From assembly GCF_014651635.1 (NCBI RefSeq), contig NZ_BMXG01000001.1, forward strand, positions 1 to 64,000: 64,000 nt of DNA. Reading direction: 5' to 3'. Origin of the DNA: Cerasicoccus arenae. Its GTDB lineage: Bacteria; Verrucomicrobiota; Verrucomicrobiia; Opitutales; Cerasicoccaceae. The translations under genes were made by a program, and so were the position numbers. Shown piece after piece: positions 16,525 through 16,729 of this stretch (the first letter of the stretch is position 1; each line of letters begins with the position of its first letter). The notes under the pieces were generated by a model. That model was not told the DNA's origin, did no database searches, and worked only from the letters and a program-made list of their open reading frames with translations.

Positions 16525-16530
16525 TATAAT
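16525..16530 (+). promoter_or_regulatory. Perfect -10 hexamer TATAAT
   Basis: TATAAT at 16525-16530. No good -35 is visible at 16-18 bp (the bases there are close to AGACTC), and there is no TG extension. It would start a transcript near 16537 that runs through the hairpin, the CTA array and the terminator below. Confidence 0.4.
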
Positions 16531-16560
16531 ACTGCTAATATGCGAATCTAGAAAACAGAG

Positions 16561-16589
16561 AGTCCCCGCCGATTGCTCGGACGGGGACT
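16561..16589. repeat. Strong inverted repeat (stem-loop)
   Basis: AGTCCCCG (16561-16568) pairs with CGGGGACT (16582-16589), and CCGA (16569-16572) with TCGG (16577-16580), with one bulged A and a TTGC tetraloop. No T run follows on either strand directly, so it is not a standard terminator by itself. Confidence 0.85.
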
Positions 16590-16594
16590 GGCTG

Positions 16595-16635
16595 CTACTA
16601 CTACTACTACTACTACTACTACTACTACTACTACT
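16595..16635 (+). repeat. CTA trinucleotide microsatellite, about 13.7 copies
   Basis: Forty-one bases of uninterrupted CTA repeats directly after the stem-loop. Read on + it is Leu, Tyr or Thr codons; on - one frame is a stack of TAG stops. No other triplet array of this size was seen in the window. Confidence 0.95.
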
Positions 16636-16694
16636 GACTGAAATGTCGGGTTTAACCCCAACACTTATATCGTCAGTAATATATACGACATGTT

Positions 16695-16729
16695 CCTGAA
16701 AAGATTACCCTTTTGCAGGCTTTTTTTTT
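16695..16729 (+). terminator. Rho-independent terminator
   Basis: CCTGAAAAG (16695-16703) pairs with CTTTTGCAGG (16710-16719, one bulged C) around a six-base loop, followed by C and nine T. A good + strand terminator. The nearest known + gene ends more than 500 bp upstream, which supports an independent transcript. Confidence 0.8.

Follow-up and report, generated by a model that had tools for sequence, protein, structure and literature searches.

A predicted minus-strand small RNA with a UAG-repeat tract before its terminator hairpin in Cerasicoccus arenae, and its paralogue across the family

The 64,000-nucleotide stretch of Cerasicoccus arenae DNA analysed here (the window) likely contains the gene for a small RNA, RNA A, which would be transcribed from the minus strand between about 16671 and 16553. 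In the order of transcription, RNA A is predicted to comprise a 5' hairpin, a tract of UAG repeats and a GC-rich hairpin acting as an intrinsic terminator. It appears to be one of at least two paralogues, with a design that recurs at other loci, and the tract is the predicted site of an RNA-binding protein. We assign this joint reading a probability of about 0.62. It draws on a conserved anatomy, paralogy, a strand bias in base pairing, a covarying terminator in the paralogue RNA B, an invariant 20-nt tract, and ordinary terminators that are free of the tract in a 1.26 Mb sample; the course of transcription as drawn here is what we infer from sequence. We file RNA A as a terminator-bearing small RNA with a binding tract, which is a known kind, in a UAG-tract version that has no Rfam match.

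Anatomy of the RNA A locus

A tandem-repeat scan of the window places a pure CTA array at 16595-16635 (13.7 copies, 100% match), consisting of 13 CTA units plus CT on the plus strand and reading UAG on the minus strand. This is the 41-base pure repeat reported in the original prediction. The 12-base array core, CTACTACTACTA, has ten matches in the window, all of them within the array, and not one in 100 dinucleotide shuffles. A 21-base version of the core finds no second place in the 4.13 Mb assembly. The organism's own genome has just one other 12-base array, and the idea that CTA arrays form a class spread across it was rejected.

The predicted RNA A spans 16553-16671 on the minus strand (approximately 119 nt, both ends being predictions), an assignment that draws on its fold and on its presence in four genomes of the genus. 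Its putative 5' hairpin, GTGTTGGG-GTTAAA-CCCGACAT (16643-16664, minus strand), has 8 bp on the minus strand, two of them G-U, and 6 bp on the plus strand. The tract follows, and in the minus-strand fold of the window sequence it may pair weakly with itself. The GC-rich hairpin at 16561-16589 has the 12 bp originally described, with one bulge, and on the minus strand it would serve RNA A as its 3' terminator hairpin. The tail after this hairpin is CTCTGTTTT in the window, ATTTTTTGC in the related genome G002 and ATCTGTGTA in the related genomes G001 and G003.

Upstream of the predicted RNA, also on the minus strand, TATATT (16678-16683) is a putative -10-like element within a block common to RNA A and RNA B. 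The adjoining GGAACATGTCG (16686-16696, minus strand), identical in all four species, is a possible part of a promoter or operator. A tract of nine A at 16721-16729 (minus strand; nine T on the plus strand) lies about -50 to -58 from the predicted start and would fit an upstream promoter element. The flanking genes are convergent, as was first noted: an ORF of 498 aa on the left side of the array (14687-16183, plus strand) and a small, lipoprotein-like ORF of 69 aa (16852-17061, minus strand), which is upstream of RNA A on the strand of RNA A. Neither ORF has a Pfam match, and an ORF similar to the lipoprotein-like one adjoins RNA A in all four species.

Elsewhere in the window, at 47651-47699, a nine-base tandem repeat, CATGGGCGG, encodes the Gly-Gly-Met tail of a protein that is presumably GroEL-like. 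This repeat is ordinary.

Conservation within the genus

A DNA search covered 54 genomes, ten of which matched. The search of related genomes for the hairpin plus CTA array that had been proposed with the original prediction thereby found the RNA A unit in all four Cerasicoccus genomes examined; the other six matched genomes gave merely short repeat-like or T-run matches. G001 is Cerasicoccus frondis and G003 is C. maritimus, their RNA B loci being 100% identical to named contigs over 2251 and 3133 bases, respectively.

Alignment of the four species revealed that the hairpin, the array, the next 75 bases and the T run are kept, and that the sequence upstream of the hairpin, including the TATAAT hexamer, is not. 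The tract is shorter in the other three species, with seven to eight CTA units interrupted by one CTG. It is likely that the tract of the window species lengthened by replication slippage, reaching its 13 pure units from an earlier eight to nine that included one CTG. The 60-residue poly-Leu peptide once offered as an alternative product of this interval is not supported, its frame not being kept between species: a 2-base indel after the array sets the window apart from the other three species.

A covariance model of RNA A on the plus strand (R1) was run over 372 genomes of the order and matched five of them, namely the four genomes of the genus plus G004, which belongs to another genus. The second R1 hits in the genus genomes, and the hit in G004, are RNA B.

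RNA B, a paralogue found across the family

Sequence comparison identifies RNA B as a paralogue of RNA A, and two or more small-RNA paralogues are thus predicted in the genus. On the UAG strand, A and B have in common a promoter-like block ending in ATATAT, an A-rich tract before it, and a hairpin of the form GTGTTGG...CCRAC. The block has no clear -35 element. In G001-G003 the A-rich tract that precedes RNA B is similar to the A9 tract of RNA A.

A second covariance model, R2, represents RNA B in the UAG orientation. It matched all ten family genomes at E values up to 0.036 and, outside the family, five of the other 362 genomes of the order at E values of 0.012-0.041; these outside matches are explained by chance. 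The weakest match within the family, in G005 (E 0.036), is not significant by its E value alone and is upheld because it has the identical tract and the same neighbour gene. R2 also matched RNA A weakly (E 0.019 to 0.29) in three of the four genus genomes.

The 20-nt tract of RNA B, TAGTAGCAGTAGTGGTAGCT, is identical in ten of ten family genomes. Directly 3' of it lies a GC hairpin that is paired in all ten. In each genome RNA B is preceded on its own strand, at a distance of 180-240 nt, by the end of an ORF whose C-terminus is cysteine-synthase-like. We refer to this neighbour gene as cysK, the name being our own; the Pfam domain PALP was confirmed in the single copy tested, L040.

The predicted terminator of RNA B covaries, its sequence changing while its pairing is kept. 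Of its 14 pairs, five show two-sided changes; four of these are found in G004 and the other in G002. The 5' hairpin common to RNA A and RNA B has no two-sided change in eight sequences. The 5' hairpin of RNA B varies between genera, the sequence at this position being a different one in G004, and the tract is therefore the best-conserved part. On its own strand, RNA B of G002 folds with a z score of -7.57.

UAG tracts before terminators at other loci

Six further loci, C, D, E, F, H and I, carry a UAG tract before a terminator. In three genus genomes locus D lies behind a gene for acetyl-CoA hydrolase, assigned by Pfam for L045 and L068 and by eye for L046. Locus E follows an hsp20 gene in G007, where the UAG tract is succeeded at once by a GC hairpin and then a T-rich tail, whereas at the hsp20 locus of G004 the tract is present with no hairpin directly behind it. 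Locus I follows an AcrB-type gene, and its hairpin, weak in the array scan, reached -33.8 kcal/mol in a separate fold. Locus H has a ribonucleotide-reductase small-chain gene 435 nt upstream, and loci C and F are two others with a UAG tract, a GC hairpin and a T-rich tail. A T-rich tail is found in B, C, D, E (in G007) and H; in three of the four species RNA A has a weak T tail on the minus strand. By sequence and by fold, the tract is a stretch directly 5' of a predicted terminator, and it occurs in paralogous copies.

Across the family, a hairpin closely follows the array on the UAG strand in 17 of 21 cases (one of them, that of locus I, weak), compared with one of 21 on the other side; the remaining four have none directly behind. 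These 21 arrays represent approximately ten independent loci. They leave out L072 and L048, which are inside long ORFs, and places without a locus, such as G003:C30:74184, and the five RNA B loci of G005-G009 are counted in the RNA B terminator set instead. Outside the family a hairpin lies downstream in two of 19 arrays, one (L094) being stable but 18 nt away, and these 19 loci are mostly coding or without a terminator. A single covariance model of the UAG-plus-terminator loci, built from 12 of 18 segments and then from ten with F and H omitted, misplaced the stems.

The tract could in principle be a general feature of terminators, and this was rejected on the basis of 159 terminator-like sites sampled from 1,263,179 bases of three genomes. 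Upstream of these sites TAG shows no enrichment (77 observed against 91.7 expected), and AGN runs of four or more occur among them only at RNA A and RNA B. Since ordinary terminators have no TAG enrichment, the UAG tract is something extra to the GC hairpin.

Not every tract stands before a hairpin. At L019 (G001) and L047 (G003) a UAG tract lies directly before a gene start, without a hairpin, in an apparent operon spacer. We take the gene that follows to be cobalamin-adenosyltransferase-like. A tract in this leader would fit a protein that acts on small RNAs and on an mRNA leader.

Two weaker candidates were seen in the genome of the window species, G000:C1:368231-368323 (L158) and G000:C4:34096-34191 (L147), each with an AGC- or UAG-rich stretch before a strong hairpin.

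Separate genes or mRNA 3' ends

Upstream of the tract, an ORF on the same strand comes to its end in 12 of 12 loci, as cysK does at all ten RNA B loci. In the neighbour table, 20 of 26 upstream ORFs and 17 of 24 downstream ORFs lie on the UAG strand. Six upstream neighbours fall on the other strand, those of five RNA B loci and that of L047. At these RNA B loci the cysK-type ORF runs on the UAG strand, as does a 476-aa ORF at L047; the six exceptional neighbours are taken as antisense shadow frames.

This arrangement is what would be expected if the elements belonged to the 3' UTR of the upstream mRNA (lipoprotein, cysK, acetyl-CoA hydrolase, hsp20 and others), with the tract and terminator shaping the mRNA 3' end or yielding a processed small RNA. 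The tract of locus D (L045) begins 7 nt past the final sense codon; that of L013 takes in the stop codon itself. However, candidate terminators separate the upstream gene from several of the RNAs. Between cysK and RNA B one is present in seven of ten genomes, six of these scoring better than all 50 shuffles, with no clear one in G001, G002 and G006. Between the lipoprotein-like gene and RNA A a clear candidate is present in G002 only; none is clear in the window, G001 or G003, the weak hit in G001 lying at the edge of RNA A. The promoter-like block and A-tract that RNA A and RNA B have in common also argue against a 3' UTR origin. We therefore take A and B to be separate genes, as these sequence features suggest, and consider a 3' UTR origin unlikely for them; it may well apply to loci D, E and I.

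Strand of transcription

The small RNA is most likely on the minus strand, on which the array reads UAG and the GC hairpin forms the predicted 3' end. Five observations favour this strand: how G-U pairs are distributed, the fold z scores, the position of the hairpin relative to the tract, the strand of the upstream gene, and RNA B as a paralogue. In 25 hairpins, 30 of 286 pairs are G-U on the UAG strand, compared with two of 256 on the CUA strand. The RNA B terminators have 26 G-U as against three A-C positions, and among the ten they are more stable on the UAG strand in nine and equally stable in one. The 16553-16671 interval folds to -51.4 kcal/mol on the minus strand (z -9.24) and to -33.0 kcal/mol on the plus strand (z -4.93), with none of 200 shuffles as good in either case. 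For RNA A by itself the strand evidence is thinner than for the whole set: G-U pairs are absent from its terminator hairpin on both strands in all four species, and its 5' hairpins have two G-U pairs on the minus strand as against one on the plus strand.

The original prediction had placed the small RNA on the plus strand, with a start near TATAAT (16525-16530), the GC hairpin at the 5' end, a CUA linker, and a 3' hairpin plus nine-T terminator. Its T run (16721-16729, plus strand) is present and is kept in all four species (9, 9, 9 and 7 T), and a T5-T6 run occupies a similar place at RNA B in G001-G003; these runs might also terminate a plus-strand RNA. The plus-strand fold of 16535-16729 has a z score of -4.7, and those of the relatives have -6.0, -4.2 and -2.6. 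A fold of the window pairs a hairpin before the T run, as had been claimed, and such a hairpin is predicted in three of the four species; it is missing in G002. The terminator scan of the window finds no terminator-like site at the T run. TATAAT is not supported as a plus-strand promoter, occurring five times in the window against 12.3 expected and not being kept in the other three species. The G-U bias of 30 to 2 favours the opposite strand, as does the far better minus-strand fold of the 119 nt. The nine T may instead be the A-tract of the minus-strand promoter, and the conservation of the T run would be explained by an A-tract at the position of an upstream element. On balance, a plus-strand transcript appears improbable. 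What stands of the original unit is a non-coding, structured, conserved element with an array of variable length; its plus-strand orientation is most likely wrong.

Function of the tract

The UAG tract of a minus-strand RNA might act as a base-pairing seed, its repeats pairing with CUA-rich stretches of target mRNAs. The 20-nt identity of the RNA B tract in all ten species would suit such a seed. Against it, 1.26 Mb from three genomes contains a single 11-nt match to the complement of the RNA B tract outside RNA B, compared with 19 for the reversed sequence, a control that is without stop codons and biased upward. Further, other loci differ in what interrupts the tract (CAG, TAA), as would be usual in a degenerate repeat motif. 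A seed function thus has a low likelihood. That the array is a neutral microsatellite, a slippage product without function, is very improbable, for although its copy number varies between species (13 pure units as against seven to eight CTA plus one CTG), the block and hairpins around it are kept where the flanks are not, the RNA B tract is invariant in ten species, and the tract recurs at several unrelated loci in one family.

We propose instead that a protein preferring UAG or AGU binds the tract and would either stabilise the RNA or be titrated by it. The notion of a protein-binding or titrating RNA put forward in the original prediction may come close to this preferred reading.

Hfq-dependent small RNAs carry an (ARN)n tract plus a terminator. 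The UAG RNAs are alike in that (AGU)n fits the A-R-N pattern and is followed by a terminator; they are unlike in that Hfq (PF17209) was found in none of the ten family genomes (five of 14 control genomes were positive). An Hfq site was rejected on this ground. ProQ (PF04352) was likewise found in none of the ten family genomes and in one of 14 controls, E. coli. The proposed binding protein would then be neither Hfq nor ProQ. In contrast, a protein with an RRM domain (PF00076) is encoded in all ten family genomes and in two of 14 controls, and would be the leading candidate partner. In sponge RNAs of the CsrB/RsmZ type, a repeated short motif (GGA) titrates a protein. The UAG RNAs resemble these in having a repeated short motif that could titrate a protein, with a UAG tract also standing before a gene start in G001 and G003; they differ in that the motif is UAG, not GGA.

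There is precedent for an RRM protein in such a role. RbpB, an RRM-1 protein of Bacteroides thetaiotaomicron, binds the multicopy FopS small RNAs, each a single-stranded stretch plus a terminator; its ligands have a common 41-nt motif, and FopS is reported to have been deposited in Rfam (PMC11697453). The two systems differ, with a 41-nt motif there and a triplet tract plus 5' hairpin here, where RRM binding is hypothetical. The two RNA-binding domains of Musashi-1, which are eukaryotic RRMs, are reported to recognise r(UAG)/r(GUAG) (PMC6152312). An RRM can thus read the very triplet repeated here, a like specificity of the bacterial RRM being hypothetical. Among the best 60 of 159 solved relatives of the RRM protein encoded in the genome of the window species, Musashi is not named and no UAG reader is singled out.

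Tentatively, in a family where neither Hfq nor ProQ is recognised, UAG/AGU tracts before terminators might together mark RNAs for a single RNA-binding protein, the RRM protein being a plausible choice. This protein would bind a set of small RNAs and some mRNA leaders. A tract length that slippage can change would then tune the amount of protein captured by each RNA.

Comparison with known RNA families

The window has no Rfam match at the gathering threshold. At relaxed settings, 16559-16681 on the minus strand gave RsaA at 21.6 bits (50 needed; E 0.37), which is below threshold and was treated as chance. L040, L009, L045, L070 and L050 had no Rfam match at E up to 1, and 11 further loci gave merely a tRNA lying away from the element (L150:1093-1167). 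Judged by title, none of the open papers listed for Hfq in Verrucomicrobia, RNA in Cerasicoccus, or small RNAs and terminators in Opitutales concerns such RNAs.

A separate conserved small-RNA-like unit was noticed in L148, L149, L151 and L154 (G008, G005, G007 and G001, respectively). It consists of GGAATGATAAMACAGTAGAGATGGCGGGAGGYCCCC, a loop, GGGGGCCTCTATT and a T-rich tail, and has no Rfam match. In L148, L149 and L151 it is convergent to a gene that we take to be pdxH-like.

Implications for the family

Post-transcriptional regulation in this part of the Verrucomicrobiota looks little charted, as judged by titles in the open literature searched. If RNA B is truly a small RNA, it would offer a conserved and easily detected entry point, its 20-nt tract being identical in ten species of four genera. 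Two general questions would become testable here: what replaces Hfq and ProQ in bacteria lacking the two, and whether a bacterial RRM reads a triplet repeat as Musashi does in animals.
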